Below are positions 4,334 through 47,062 of a stretch of DNA of 48,185 nt, piece after piece. Source of the stretch: an uncultured Elusimicrobia bacterium (GTDB lineage: Bacteria; Elusimicrobiota; Elusimicrobia; Elusimicrobiales; UBA9959); assembly GCA_903867985.1 (NCBI GenBank), contig CAIPTO010000101.1, forward strand, positions 1 through 48,185. Reading direction: 5' to 3'. Every line of letters starts with the position of its first letter. Position 1 is the stretch's first letter. Both the position numbers and the translations under genes were made by a program. The notes under the pieces were generated by a model. It did no database searches. It saw only the letters and a list, made by a program, of their open reading frames with translations, and was not told where the DNA came from.

Positions 4334-4414
4334 GATTATAACCTCCGCAACGAAATTATTACAGGTATATTATACCGAAAACTGCGCCCGGAATGATAAA
4401 GCCGTGAAACTGGC

Positions 4415-4454
4415 ACCGCCGCGCTGTCTTGCTGTCGTACTGCCGCGCTAAACA
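4415..4454. repeat. Array A: period-8 degenerate tandem repeat
   Basis: ACCGCCGC GCTGTCTT GCTGTCGT ACTGCCGC GCTAAACA; the recO stop codon lies in the last unit. Confidence 0.7.
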
Positions 4455-5155: not shown

Positions 5156-5190
5156 AATGATATATTAGCAATTTACCTTACGGCAAATCG

Positions 5191-5316
5191 CGCGACAGCA
5201 GATAGCGCTACACTGCAAATAAGCAATTTTTACAAATTTTCCCTGCTGTTATGTATTCGGTTTCTTCTGCTGTCCCGCTGCCGCGCTGTCTTGCTATCTG
5301 CCACTTGCCCTTTGTC
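5191..5316. repeat. Array B: period-8 repeat, inverted halves, in the recO/rpmH divergent gap
   Basis: Right half GCTGTCCC GCTGCCGC GCTGTCTT GCTATCTG CCACTTGC CCTTTGTC (5269-5316); left half 5191-5225 carries the same words inverted (GCAGATAGC 5198-5206 vs GCTATCTGC 5293-5301). Confidence 0.7.
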
Positions 5317-5340
5317 TTTTGTATATTTATTTAATATAAT
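5312..5340 (+). promoter_or_regulatory. Sigma70-like promoter for rpmH
   Basis: TTGTCT-N17-TATAAT, ending 9 nt before the rpmH ATG. Confidence 0.6.
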
Positions 5341-5349
5341 TAACACACT

Positions 5350-5487
5350 ATGCTACCTACATACAGACCAAATGTCAGAAGAAGAAAAAAGACTCTCGGT
5401 TTTCGCGCAAAAATGAAAACCGCGGGCGGAAGAAAAACTTTAGCTAGAAGACGCGCGAAAGGGCGATGGCATCTCATTCCCGACTAG
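5350..5487 (+). CDS. rpmH: 50S ribosomal protein L34
   Basis: Not in ORF track (45 aa); translates to [45 protein letters not shown]. Confidence 0.95.
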
Positions 5488-5515
5488 ACGCTTGCGCGTT
5501 TATCGGCGTCGTTGA

Positions 5516-8708: not shown

Positions 8709-8711
8709 TCG

Positions 8712-8842
8712 GGATAGTGACTGGTGCAAAGCACAATTCGGTGAACAAGCGGATAGTGCAGAGTTGAGAGTGCAGAGTAAACAGCGCAGGGTGCCGGTAC
8801 CCTCCTTATAAACTCGCCACTAGCCACTCGCACTATCCGCTT
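8712..8842. repeat. Array C: period-7 repeat with inverted halves upstream of mnmE
   Basis: GTGCAGA GTTGAGA GTGCAGA GTAAACA GCGCAGG (8756-8790) and inverse ACTCGCC ACTAGCC ACTCGCA (8812-8832); 13-bp IR AAGCGGATAGTGC 8747-8759 / GCACTATCCGCTT 8830-8842. Confidence 0.7.
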
Positions 8843-8855
8843 TTTTATATTTACT

Positions 8856-14753: not shown

Positions 14754-14768
14754 TTGAGTTCCTTTACA

Positions 14769-14824
14769 CCCTCTAATCCTCTAGTCCTAAAGTCCTCTGT
14801 TGCTCCGATTCTCCAATCCCTCGT
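14769..14824. repeat. Array D: period-8 degenerate tandem repeat
   Basis: CCCTCTAA TCCTCTAG TCCTAAAG TCCTCTGT TGCTCCGA TTCTCCAA TCCCTCGT. Confidence 0.75.
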
Positions 14825-14847
14825 CTATTTTCACGACCTTTTGGATT

Positions 14848-14877
14848 AAAAAAACGTTATATATTAACGCTTTTTTT
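14848..14877 (+). terminator. AT-rich hairpin between peptidase gene and mraZ promoter
   Basis: AAAAAAACGTTA-TATA-TTAACGCTTTTTTT, near-perfect inverted repeat ending in T7. Confidence 0.55.
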
Positions 14878-14886
14878 AATTTGGCA

Positions 14887-14915
14887 TTGACAACCACCAA
14901 AGCATTCACTATACT
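14887..14915 (+). promoter_or_regulatory. Sigma70-like promoter of mraZ/dcw cluster
   Basis: TTGACA-N17-TATACT. Confidence 0.85.
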
Positions 14916-14922
14916 CTAAGTC

Positions 14923-14980
14923 CAGTGGTTTAAAGTGGTGGATAATGTTAGTAAGTGGTTTATAATGTTGTAAAATGTAA
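14923..14980 (+). promoter_or_regulatory. MraZ-box-like 10-bp phased direct repeats
   Basis: CAGTGGTT 14923, AAGTGGTG 14933, AAGTGGTT 14953, with degenerate TAATGTTA 14943, TAATGTTG 14963, AAATGTAA 14973; all on a 10-bp step. Confidence 0.7.
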
Positions 14981-15009
14981 CCATTGATCACCCGGCTAAC
15001 GCTAATTTT

Positions 15010-22873: not shown

Positions 22874-22876
22874 AGA

Positions 22877-22959
22877 ACCAGAGGACTAGAAGATCAGAGG
22901 ATCAGCAGTATCCGGAAAAATCACATTGATTCTTCAGTCCTCCAATACTCTGATCCTCC
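22877..22959. repeat. Array E: period-8 repeat with inverted halves between mraY and murD
   Basis: ACCAGAGG ACTAGAAG ATCAGAGG ATCAGCAG (22877-22908); GATTCTTC AGTCCTCC AATACTCT GATCCTCC (22928-22959). Confidence 0.75.
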
Positions 22960-31616: not shown

Positions 31617-33383
31617 ATGTCAATCACTACCACAACATTCCGCACTCATAACTGCGGGGAACTTACCGCGAACAACATCGGGCAGACCGTCACGCTGTGC
31701 GGCTGGATGGATGTAAAGCGCAACCACGGAGGCGTCATATTCGTGAATCTGCGGGACCTCTACGGCGTCACGCAGGTGGTGGTCAAGCCGGAAAATCCGG
31801 TTTTCAAGTCAGCCGAAGACCTCAAGAGCGAATATGTCCTGAAAGTTACCGGTAAAGTTTCGGCCCGGCCCGGCGCGAACGCCAACAAAGGCATGCCCAC
31901 CGGAGAAATAGAGGTGGAGGCCGGGTCCCTCGATGTGCTGAACGTCTCCCAGCCCCTGCCATTTGAGCTGAGCGAGCACGCCGGGGTCAACGAGGACACC
32001 CGCCTCACCTACCGTTTTCTCGATCTGCGCATGCCCCGCATGGCAAAGAACCTGGTATTAAGGAGCCGTCTCTCACAGGTGGTCCGCAATTACCTCTACG
32101 CCCTCGACTTTAACGAGATAGAAACTCCTATGCTGACCCGCTCTACGCCCGAAGGCGCGCGCGACTTCGTGGTTCCGTCCCGCAACAACCCCGGAAGGTT
32201 CTACGCTCTCCCGCAGTCGCCACAACAGTTCAAGCAGGTGCTGATGATGTCCGGCATGGACCGCTACTTCCAGCTGGCCCGCAATTTCCGCGACGAGGAA
32301 TTACGCTCCGACCGCCAGCCCGAGCACACACAGATAGATCTGGAGATGTCGTTCGTGGATGAGCAGGATATCGCCCACGTGGTCGAAGGCATGATGCAGG
32401 CTGTTTTCGCCCATATAAGCGAAGAGATCTCCGGCCCGTTCCCAGAGATGGAATTTTCAGATGTTATGCTGAAATACGGCTCCGACAAGCCTGATCTGCG
32501 CTACGGCCTTGAGATAAAGGATTGTTCCGATATTTTCAAAACTTCCGCCTTCAAGGTTTTTTCTGAAACCCTGGCGGGGGGCGGCGTCATACGCGCGATA
32601 AAGGGGGAGAAAGGCGCCTCCTTCAGCCGCGGCGACATGGACAAACTGACAGACCTCGCAAAGAAGCACGGCGCCAAAGGCCTGGTCTGGCTGCGCTTTA
32701 AAGATGGAAAATTCGAATCCCCTACGCTTAAATTCATGACGGAAGTCGAACTTGCCGCGCTTAAAGCCATGCTTTCGGTGGGGGAAGGCGACGCGGTATT
32801 CATGGCCGCCGATAAACCCGCAGCGGCTGCGTCCTGCCTCGGAGCGCTGCGCAATGAACTTATTTCCCGCCTGAAACCCGCGCAGATAAAAAAGTGGGCT
32901 TTCCTGTGGGTGCGGCATTTTCCTCTGCTGGAAAAGGACGCTGAGTCCGGCAATTGGACTTTCACGCACAATCCATTTACCGCGCCCATGCCGGAAGAGC
33001 TCCACAAACTGGACACGGACCCCGGTAACGTCCGCTCATGCCAGTACGATCTGGTCCTTAACGGCGTGGAACTTGGCTCCGGTTCGGTCAGGAACCACAC
33101 CCGCGCCCTGCAGGAAAAGATCTTCGCCCTGATGGGTTACGACAAGGAGCAGGTGCAGCGCCGCTTCGGCATGATAGTCAACGCCATGGACTACGGCGCG
33201 CCGCCTCACGGCGGCATAGGCATAGGCTACGACCGGCTAATCGGCATAATCTGCGGCACCGACTCTATCAGGGATGTAATAGCGTTCCCTAAAACCACCA
33301 GCGGCGCCTGCCTGATGAGCGAAGCCCCATCAACGCTGGACGAGAGACAGCTCAAAGAATTGCATCTCAAGATAGAGGCGTAG
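31617..33383 (+). CDS. aspS: Aspartate--tRNA ligase (bacterial type with GAD domain)
   Basis: HNCGELTANNIGQTVTLCGWMDVKRNHGGVIFVNLRD, FRDEELRSDRQPEHTQIDLEMSF, GIGYDRLIGIICGTDSIRDVIAFPKT. Confidence 0.97.
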   Translation: MSITTTTFRTHNCGELTANNIGQTVTLCGWMDVKRNHGGVIFVNLRDLYGVTQVVVKPENPVFKSAEDLKSEYVLKVTGKVSARPGANANKGMPTGEIEVEAGSLDVLNVSQPLPFELSEHAGVNEDTRLTYRFLDLRMPRMAKNLVLRSRLSQVVRNYLYALDFNEIETPMLTRSTPEGARDFVVPSRNNPGRFYALPQSPQQFKQVLMMSGMDRYFQLARNFRDEELRSDRQPEHTQIDLEMSFVDEQDIAHVVEGMMQAVFAHISEEISGPFPEMEFSDVMLKYGSDKPDLRYGLEIKDCSDIFKTSAFKVFSETLAGGGVIRAIKGEKGASFSRGDMDKLTDLAKKHGAKGLVWLRFKDGKFESPTLKFMTEVELAALKAMLSVGEGDAVFMAADKPAAAASCLGALRNELISRLKPAQIKKWAFLWVRHFPLLEKDAESGNWTFTHNPFTAPMPEELHKLDTDPGNVRSCQYDLVLNGVELGSGSVRNHTRALQEKIFALMGYDKEQVQRRFGMIVNAMDYGAPPHGGIGIGYDRLIGIICGTDSIRDVIAFPKTTSGACLMSEAPSTLDERQLKELHLKIEA

Positions 33384-33390
33384 CAAGCCG

Positions 33391-33558
33391 GATGCAAAAC
33401 CGTCTAGCGGCAAAGCAGTTTGGATGTAAAGCGATCTAGACAAATCACTGAATCGCTATGCCTCTAAGTTGCTAGACGGCTTTGCATCTAAATCGCTGAT
33501 TGGCTGTGCCTCTAAGCTGCTAGATTGCTTTGCGTCTAAATTGCTGATTTGCTATGAC
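33391..33558. repeat. Array G: period-8 repeat with 24-nt higher-order unit and inverted left half, ending on the lipA start codon
   Basis: 33455-33558 reads GCTATGCC TCTAAGTT GCTAGACG GCTTTGCA TCTAAATC GCTGATTG GCTGTGCC TCTAAGCT GCTAGATT GCTTTGCG TCTAAATT GCTGATTT GCTATGAC; IR 33391-33408 vs 33471-33488 (17/18). Confidence 0.9.
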
Positions 33559-34441
33559 ATATCCAGATTGGATCCTTGAAGAGGTAAAAAGGAGCAAGGC
33601 CGGCCTGCGGGACAGTTCTTCGCGCAATACAATAGGGGACCTTGCCAACGCCCGCCTGCACACTGTCTGCGACGAGGCCCTATGCCCTAACAAGGGCAAA
33701 TGCTTCTCGCAGGGAGAGGCGACCTTCCTTATCCTAGGCGACATCTGCACCAGGTCCTGCCGCTTTTGCGCCGTTTCAAAAGCAACACCCGAGCCGCCGG
33801 ACGCCGGCGAACCGCGCCGCGTCGGGGAACTGTCTAAAAAATGGAAACTGAACTATGTCGTCTTCACCTCACCGACACGCGACGACCTGCCCGACGGGGG
33901 GGCCGCGCACTTCGCCGAAACTGTGCGCGAACTGCGCAAAGCCGACCCCGCCATAAAAACGGAACCGCTCATCCCGGATCTTAAGGGCGATATGAAAGCT
34001 CTTGCGACGATACTGGCATCCGGACCGGATGTTTTAGGGCACAACGTGGAAACCGTCCCGGCGCTTTACGCCAAAGTGCGCGCTGGCGCCGATTATAAGC
34101 GTTCTCTGGGGATAATCAAAGCCGCGCGCCGCATGCGCCCGAATATCCTGACCAAATCGGGACTGATGCTGGGTTTGGGGGAAAGCGAAAATGAGATAGA
34201 TAACGCCCTCGCGGATCTGCGGGAGAACGGCTGCGACCTTCTGACTTTAGGGCAGTATCTCGCGCCGTCCAGAAATCATCTGCCTGTTGAACGATATCTA
34301 GCTCCGGAGGAATTCTTATTTTGGGAAGAAAGGGCTGAAAAATTGGGTTTTAAAGCAGCACTTTGCGGACCGCTGGTCAGAAGTTCTTATCGCGCCGGAA
34401 CCCTCTACCGGAAAGCAAGACGGAAGATGGACAGTATTTAA
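33554..34441 (+). CDS. lipA: Lipoyl synthase
   Basis: CDEALCPNKGKCFSQGEATFLILGDICTRSCRFCAV double-cluster motifs. Confidence 0.95.
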   Translation: MTYPDWILEEVKRSKAGLRDSSSRNTIGDLANARLHTVCDEALCPNKGKCFSQGEATFLILGDICTRSCRFCAVSKATPEPPDAGEPRRVGELSKKWKLNYVVFTSPTRDDLPDGGAAHFAETVRELRKADPAIKTEPLIPDLKGDMKALATILASGPDVLGHNVETVPALYAKVRAGADYKRSLGIIKAARRMRPNILTKSGLMLGLGESENEIDNALADLRENGCDLLTLGQYLAPSRNHLPVERYLAPEEFLFWEERAEKLGFKAALCGPLVRSSYRAGTLYRKARRKMDSI

Positions 34442-35149: not shown

Positions 35150-35161
35150 TTTATAATCGGC

Positions 35162-35201
35162 GCTGCCGCGCTGTCTTCCTGCCGCTCTGCCGCGCTAATC
35201 T
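35162..35201. repeat. Array H: period-8 repeat directly abutting a start codon
   Basis: GCTGCCGC GCTGTCTT CCTGCCGC TCTGCCGC GCTAATCT then ATG. Confidence 0.75.
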
Positions 35202-37441: not shown

Positions 37442-37472
37442 TAGCGGCACGCGCTAAAAGCAGAATATAAAT

Positions 37473-37518
37473 GAAGCCGGACGCTGTGGGGAGGATTCTC
37501 CTTACAGCGTCCGGCTTC
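37473..37518 (+). terminator. Strong hairpin after the 36539 ORF
   Basis: 15-bp perfect stem GAAGCCGGACGCTGT / ACAGCGTCCGGCTTC; no clear U-tract on this strand. Confidence 0.55.
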
Positions 37519-37563
37519 AAGCGGTATGCGGAGGCTAACCTGAAAACTTTAGTTAAAGTTTTC

Positions 37564-37660
37564 CGCCCGCATAGCGGGCGCCATTCGGGAGGCATACACC
37601 TCTTCGGGCCGGGCGCGCATAGCGCTGGGCCCTCAGCCCGCTCTGCGGGGAATCCTGCAG
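37564..37660. repeat. Cluster of short GC-rich hairpins (REP-like)
   Basis: CGCCCGC-ATA-GCGGGCG (37564-37580), GCGC-ATA-GCGC (37615-37625), GCCCGCTCTGCGGGG near 37637-37650. Confidence 0.55.
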
Positions 37661-37717
37661 AATAATTATGTTCCCTTGTCTATCCAATGAGAACTACTCT
37701 GAACTGCAGGATTCAGG

Positions 37718-46206: not shown

Positions 46207-46212
46207 AAGATC

Positions 46213-46246
46213 AGGGTATAGGGGTCAAGGTTAGGGTTTAGGGTTA
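46213..46246. repeat. Array I: period-7 repeat upstream of priA (telomere-like text)
   Basis: AGGGTAT AGGGGTC AAGGTT AGGGTTT AGGGTTA. Confidence 0.65.
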
Positions 46247-46276
46247 ATATTTACAGAGCCGGTTGCCGTCAACCCT

Positions 46277-47062
46277 CTACCCTTTTACTTCTTTCTCAAG
46301 AAATAGTTTAAGCATCTTCATATCTTCCCAGGTGTCGCGCTTCAAATTGGAGTTCCGGAGAAGCGCCGCGGGATGGTAAGTGGGCAGGACCTTAATAGGA
46401 TGTCCGGGGCCGAAAAGTTCAACGGGATAATCGTACCATTTGCCGCGCACGAAACTTATACCCTGGGTTACACCCAGCAGGACCTTGGTGGCCACGGAGC
46501 CCAGCGTCACTATGCATCTGGGTTTTATCAGCATCAGCTGGCGGTCAAGGTAAGGACGACAGGCGGAAATCTCTTCAGGAGTGGGCGGACGGTCGTTACC
46601 GTGGGCTTCCGGATTCTCCGGATTTATCATGGGATGACACTTTACGATATTGGCTATATAAACATCTTCACGCTTTAAACCGAGCACTGTATCCAGAATC
46701 TTATCCAACAACTGGCCCGAACGGCCCACAAAAGGCTCGCCCTTGTGATCTTCCTGAAAACCCGGTCCCTCTCCGACAAACACCACTTTGGCGCGCGGAT
46801 TTCCCACGCCTACTACGGCATTTATCCGGGAGTTGCCAAGCTGGCACTTGTGGCATTTTCCAATCTCCGCAGCCAGAGTGTCCATTTCGCCCGGCTCGCG
46901 GCCGGTTACCGGTGCGGCAACTGTCTTGCTTTCTTGCTGTCTTGCTGTCGTACTGTCTTGCTTTCCCGTTGTCTTGCTTGTCACGGACATATAGGTATCC
47001 TCATCCAGAGCCTTAACATAGGCGGCCAGATCTCCGGCCAGGGCTTTAAATTCGTTTCTCAT
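46277..47062 (-). CDS. Uracil-DNA glycosylase, family 4 (Fe-S type)
   Basis: CHKCQLGNSRINAVVGVGNPRAKVVFVGEGPG, NIVKCHPM, CRPYLDRQL, LPTYHPAALLR. Confidence 0.92.
   Translation of the reverse strand: MRNEFKALAGDLAAYVKALDEDTYMSVTSKTTGKQDSTTARQQESKTVAAPVTGREPGEMDTLAAEIGKCHKCQLGNSRINAVVGVGNPRAKVVFVGEGPGFQEDHKGEPFVGRSGQLLDKILDTVLGLKREDVYIANIVKCHPMINPENPEAHGNDRPPTPEEISACRPYLDRQLMLIKPRCIVTLGSVATKVLLGVTQGISFVRGKWYDYPVELFGPGHPIKVLPTYHPAALLRNSNLKRDTWEDMKMLKLFLEKEVKG
46920..46983. repeat. Array J: period-8 repeat inside the UDG coding sequence
   Basis: ACTGTCTT GCTTTCTT GCTGTCTT GCTGTCGT ACTGTCTT GCTTTCCC GTTGTCTT GCTTGTCA. Confidence 0.9.

Follow-up and report, generated by a model that had tools for sequence, protein, structure and literature searches.

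The locus considered here raises a simple question: why is the gap between aspS and lipA in an Elusimicrobia genome filled by a regular array of octamers that runs into the lipA start codon, and does the array serve lipA at all? The window, by which we mean the whole stretch of DNA analysed, is contig 101 (48,185 nt) of a 2.6-Mb MAG in 147 contigs, and its 170-nt aspS-lipA gap consists almost wholly of one element. The parts of this region are as follows.

31617 to 33383, plus strand: aspS, aspartate--tRNA ligase (NCBIfam NF001750, E 2e-237), the gene 5' of the element
33384 to 33438, no strand: left arm of the palindrome, built of inverted words (sequence, inverted repeats I1-I4 and fold)
33391 to 33408, plus strand: left copy of the 18-nt inverted repeat I3, GATGCAAAACCGTCTAGC, 94% complementary to the right copy
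33431 to 33448, no strand: approximate centre or loop of the palindrome (best ungapped pairing)
33439 to 33454, plus strand: two degenerate octamers, GACAAATC ACTGAATC, continuing the register of the right arm leftwards (sequence)
33455 to 33558, plus strand: right arm, 13 octamers in register with a 24-/48-nt superperiod (octamer parse and TRF)
33471 to 33488, plus strand: right copy of I3, GCTAGACGGCTTTGCATC
33554 to 34441, plus strand: lipA, lipoyl synthase (NCBIfam TIGR00510/NF004019), its ATG inside the last octamer, GCTATGAC

The aspS stop codon (TAG, 33381-33383) directly abuts the element. Read from 33455, octamers 1-7 are GCTATGCC TCTAAGTT GCTAGACG GCTTTGCA TCTAAATC GCTGATTG GCTGTGCC and octamers 8-13 are TCTAAGCT GCTAGATT GCTTTGCG TCTAAATT GCTGATTT GCTATGAC; the direct repeats D1/D2 begin at 33442. 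A preliminary description of this DNA had proposed exactly this parse with its 24- and 48-nt periods, and it is borne out by the self-matches of the right arm (53/80 at lag 24, 47/56 at lag 48) and by TRF, which returns a period of 24 and one of 48 (score 160), the top tandem repeat of the window; octamers 1-6 and 7-12 are identical at 41 of 48 positions. The left half had been described as carrying the same words inverted, with a 17/18 match. The match stands, but the left half is more than that, being the second arm of a long hairpin: its reverse complement (33384-33438) reads ..GATC GCTTTACA TCCAAACT GCTTTGCC GCTAGACG GTTTTGCA TCCGGCTT. The RNA folding that the same description had called for gives a strong structure, with 33384-33560 folding at -65.7 kcal/mol as compared to -45.7 +/- 3.9 for dinucleotide shuffles (z -5.1). 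In an Rfam scan of the window with covariance models at the gathering score only a tRNA was found, and the element matches no model. A protein-coding array was also considered and rejected; the right arm is open in one frame, which is not that of lipA, and its words put stops in the other two.

The placement of the lipA ATG within the last octamer and the lack of an upstream Shine-Dalgarno (SD) sequence, both noted before, held up on inspection. Two things make the start codon credible: LipA proteins of relatives align from residue 1-3, and the product is a complete lipoyl synthase, the closest named relatives of which come from Elusimicrobia MAGs. An SD-like word precedes about 42% of the well-bounded starts of this genome, as compared to 12-14% of control windows, and some 58% have none. 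By base-pair probabilities the A and the G of the lipA AUG are predicted to pair with 33404-33405 (P 0.7-0.98), at the foot of the hairpin, and this, with the ATG lying in the last unit, is what might commend a 5' regulatory element specific to lipA, acting as a translational switch at the start codon. We find such a switch scarcely credible, and the comparison with relatives has already largely refuted it. The aspS-lipA gap is about 28 nt in the sister species G002, and in G003 it likewise has no array; both keep the same SD-less lipA start codon. The array is therefore not the reason why lipA lacks an SD, contrary to what had been suggested. Moreover, the same family recurs at 17 or more unrelated gene pairs.

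This recurrence answers the second half of our question. The aspS-lipA array belongs to a family of intergenic repeats dispersed over the genome, here named O1 (octamer mirror-image hairpin), and is therefore a genome-wide repeat rather than a lipA-specific switch; we found at least 18 copies in this MAG, at unrelated genes, so that the specific role in lipA expression hinted at earlier falls away. The core-word pattern occurs in 15 clusters in 414 kb of the genome and in none after shuffling, and the aspS-lipA array is therefore not unique. A blastn search of the array against its own genome gave 51 matches at about 25 places, the best cross-locus identity being 79% over 95 nt; as identity over a long stretch does not exceed this value, the aspS-lipA element has no recent duplicate. 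Searches of the open-access literature on octamer repeats and Elusimicrobia palindromes turned up no account of O1.

O1 copies follow a loose plan, approximately (GCTTTRCN-TCYARNYT)n with additional GCTNNNNN octamers, over about 80-260 nt, with free variation in the number of units and the length of the arms. The 15 clusters are either inverted-then-direct or single-armed, the opposite order never being seen, and all copies with words on both sides are imperfect palindromes that read as inverted words (e.g., AGAGGCAAAGCAGTTTAGATGTAAAGCAATTTAGC) on the left followed by direct words (e.g., TAAATTGCTTTGCATCTAAATTGC) on the right. Core words are spaced 16, 24, 28 or 32 nt apart across copies, and the 24-nt superperiod, correct for aspS-lipA, is therefore a feature of that copy and not of O1 as a family. 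Adjacent units are unlike one another, and identical variants recur at different loci.

Most copies fold better than their shuffles (z -2 to -7), while those at L109 and L100:18100 hardly do so. The median fold z is -4.2 for array-bearing gaps versus -0.9 for other gaps, and large hairpins are therefore a regular outcome. Whether each individual hairpin is maintained is a different matter. By ungapped pair counts a copy's own arms pair at 24.8/40 positions, against 24.1/40 for arms taken from different loci and 16.5/40 for shuffled arms (p 0.15), and by duplex energy there was likewise no excess of own-arm pairing as a sign of locus-level co-variation (p 0.82). Own arms thus pair no better than cross-locus arms, which points to no detectable selection on the individual hairpin, and the hairpin belongs to the word family rather than to locus-level selection.

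Most O1 copies, 15 of 18, are flanked by tandem genes; convergent genes flank 2 and divergent genes 1. For all 7- and 8-mer arrays in the sampled part of the genome the tandem share is 36/38 versus 135/184 for other gaps (p 0.003). The corresponding gaps in sister species are often short and without an array: 9 and 21 nt for dnaJ-rsmE, 5 nt for ligA-purH, about 6 nt for rfbA-rfbC, 0 nt for a FAD-oxidoreductase pair and, in G001, 0 nt for an ABC pair. Where sister species have 0-30 nt, O1 has either moved in or expanded. It can also take over the 3' end of a gene, stop codon included: the C-terminus of one oxidoreductase is overwritten here (..AAEYLGGKAL-stop versus ..AAEYLKKVLSNQRRDL-stop in G001), and two further genes have array-encoded C-termini, ..EARQSGCKAI-stop and ..EAKQFRCKAV-stop. 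Two G001 junctions hold apparent remnants of O1 words, and the orthologous gaps have diverged too far to reveal target-site duplications.

Strong hairpins directly 3' of stop codons that are depleted between divergent genes might be bidirectional transcription terminators, and one hairpin of another family in the window, at 8709-8855, does end in TTTTTT. It is a heptamer palindrome of GTGCAGA/GTTGAGA words with an inverted CACTCGC arm, and resembles an intrinsic terminator. For O1 itself we consider termination highly unlikely. None of the tandem copies is followed by a T-run of 5 or more, so the U-tract of an intrinsic terminator is missing and O1 was rejected as a member of that class; the convergent copy L090 has a separate hairpin and poly-T of its own downstream; and O1 sits within gene pairs (dnaJ-rsmE, ligA-purH, rfbA-rfbC and aspS-lipA) whose members nearly abut in sister species and look operonic there.

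Alternatively, O1 might be a non-autonomous mobile element of the REPIN/MITE kind, moved by a tyrosine (Y1/RAYT) transposase. REP, BIME and REPIN sequences are dispersed intergenic palindromes that follow coding regions, between genes that are unidirectional or convergent, and are probably transcribed as RNA hairpins (PMC3733652; PMC3116915). A REP unit measures 20-40 bp and carries an unpaired tag, GTAG or CGTC, and the GTAG types go with RAYT transposases (PMC3733652; PMC3116915), whereas no RAYT is known for the CGTC type (PMC3733652). O1 resembles these in being a many-copy dispersed intergenic palindrome (15 clusters in 414 kb; 18 loci examined), the MAG has two Y1_Tnp genes, and O1 words occur in another genus (G021). 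Nevertheless, we rate this origin very unlikely: no O1 word was found in the sequence examined around either Y1 gene (L113 and L150), no pair of copies exceeds 79% identity across the element, the number of units and the length of the arms are not fixed, and on reading the copies no shared tetranucleotide foot was seen, neither GTAG nor CGTC. O1 is thus not a REP, because it is untagged, much longer and octamer-built, and its words are not found around the two Y1 genes. One of these genes (L150:1200-2700, in C96 of the MAG) lies amid repeated AAAAAGGTAGCGTCTACCTTTTT palindromes, likely a true RAYT-type repeat association that has nothing to do with O1.

The closest parallels are the short tandem repeats (STRR) made of heptamers. 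The GGGNATC arrays of Xanthomonas and Nostoc consist of 7-nt words spread through intergenic regions and differ in occurrence from lineage to lineage; they favour aligned ORFs, sit near stop codons and avoid divergent ORFs, and such heptamers have been reported to be transcribed, with their function left open (PMC4692102). The TAACTGA heptamers of Beggiatoaceae and Cyanobacteria are likewise intergenic and patchily distributed; their translation into stop codons restricts the possible sites, and most of them sit shortly before a start codon (PMC4679880), in which they differ from O1. In common with the STRR/heptamer repeats O1 is a tandem, intergenic and dispersed word of short fixed length (13 units in register, with a genome-wide signal at lags 8/16/24), and it shares with GGGNATC the preference for aligned genes, the avoidance of divergent ones and the adjacency to stops. 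In contrast, the O1 unit is 8 nt and not 7, true 7-nt families being present beside it; O1 has 16-/24-nt superperiods, degenerate units and a regular palindromic layout; it coexists with several heptamer and octamer families; and it has no quadruplex-type G-tracts.

O1 is not alone in this lineage, which has several word families of 7 or 8 nt. Intergenic autocorrelation in the MAG peaks at 7/14/21 and 8/16/24, with no peak at 9, 10 or 11, and at a strict threshold 224 gaps yielded 24 7-mer and 14 8-mer arrays, where about 0 were expected and neighbouring periods gave 0-2. The octamer families include CCTCTAAT and CTGTCTTG/CTGCCGCG, the heptamer families AGTGAAT, CGTAAAG, GCCATAG and CCCTAAA, and several of these unrelated families have a common architecture. 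Within the window CTGTCTTG/CTGCCGCG occupies 4334-4447, 5156-5515, 35150-35201 and 46921-46979, the last of these within an ORF call (46277-47062) that may be over-extended, and CCTCTAAT / ATCCTCTG occupies 14754-15009 and 22874-22925 and recurs widely elsewhere in the genome. At 46207-46276 lie degenerate heptamers resembling TTTAGGG (AGGGTTTAGGGTTA), whose sequence is like that of telomeres, and similar arrays are found at L108:1700 and L094:13792. A gap that holds no array (37442-37717) contains several perfect and very stable hairpins, with an MFE of -142 kcal/mol in 276 nt, and these are another kind of intergenic inverted repeat.

Across the phylum the distribution is patchy, even between congeners. 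Both periods, 7 and 8, are present in G013 and G021 (another genus), and G002, G024 and G014 show little besides the codon period of 3. The strict O1 pattern was found in 2 of 150 phylum genomes, this MAG and G021, both G021 copies being palindromic, and the heptamer array (TATTCGC)3 in 6 of 150 from four genera and three families (0 for the reversed-pattern control in each case). In G021 other words, either GCTGGTAG octamers or GCCATAG heptamers, build a strong palindrome at each of aspS-lipA, dnaJ-rsmE and ligA-purH, and G013 has heptamer palindromes at the first two. All six orthologous G021 gaps examined bear arrays; however, so do about 60% of G021 tandem gaps of similar size, and because of this background the excess is weak, proneness of particular junctions is not established and the hot-spot idea was set aside. 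Several heptamer palindromes (L109:11515-11961, L151:1338-1487 and gaps in G021 and G013) have a centre like AAGGAGTTCCTT, as if a common core were used by different word families.

What, then, is O1? It is an octamer-built, palindromic form of the already known intergenic short-word repeats, and with moderate confidence we take it to be an intercistronic hairpin repeat, REP/BIME-like in behaviour and STRR/heptamer-like in build, whose effects, if any, would be those of an mRNA hairpin. Since the flanking genes are near-contiguous in congeners, we infer that O1 lies in transcripts. It would thus be transcribed within polycistronic mRNA and fold into a strong hairpin between the cistrons, without ending transcription. 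If active at all, this hairpin might shield the upstream message from 3' exonucleases, as REP/BIME elements do, and loosen coupling to the downstream start, which at lipA is the codon predicted to pair at the hairpin foot. In E. coli, RNA structures protect parts of operon transcripts from decay, although mostly from inside coding regions (PMC5927463). The copies themselves presumably arose by word-level slippage and copying. In the main they probably persist because such sequence is tolerated behind stop codons, rather than because they serve as dedicated regulators.

A neutral account ranks close behind the intercistronic hairpin, and we give it a lesser but appreciable chance: 7- and 8-nt words would expand by polymerase slippage and template switching in tolerant gaps, their hairpins being a functionless by-product. 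Slippage at the scale of the polymerase active site has been proposed for heptamers (PMC4692102), and the architecture shared by unrelated word families, the cross-locus pairing that equals own-arm pairing, the patchiness and the congeners that manage without arrays at equivalent junctions would all fit. Simple tandem slippage, however, would not yield the inverted-then-direct order at many loci, and the far better folding of array gaps and the recurrence across loci of variants that differ from their neighbours also argue against it. One might further speculate, improbable as we judge it, that throughout the Elusimicrobiota some process, perhaps one with machinery of its own, assembles palindromes of 7-/8-nt words right after stops, with one junction able to hold different word families in different genera and one family able to turn up in distant genera but not in sister species. 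These would be spreading "hairpin words" distinct from both REPs and simple slippage repeats.

Short-word intergenic repeats have been familiar chiefly as heptamers of Cyanobacteria, Xanthomonas and Beggiatoaceae. They are thus also abundant in some Elusimicrobiota, where they have 7- and 8-nt periods only and can form large hairpins between operonic genes. For annotation this carries a warning, as an array can run over the end of a gene and provide its stop codon. That only periods of 7 and 8 occur, and that one junction has different words in different genera, offers a handle both on the origin of such repeats and on whether selection or tolerance accounts for the hairpins at gene ends.
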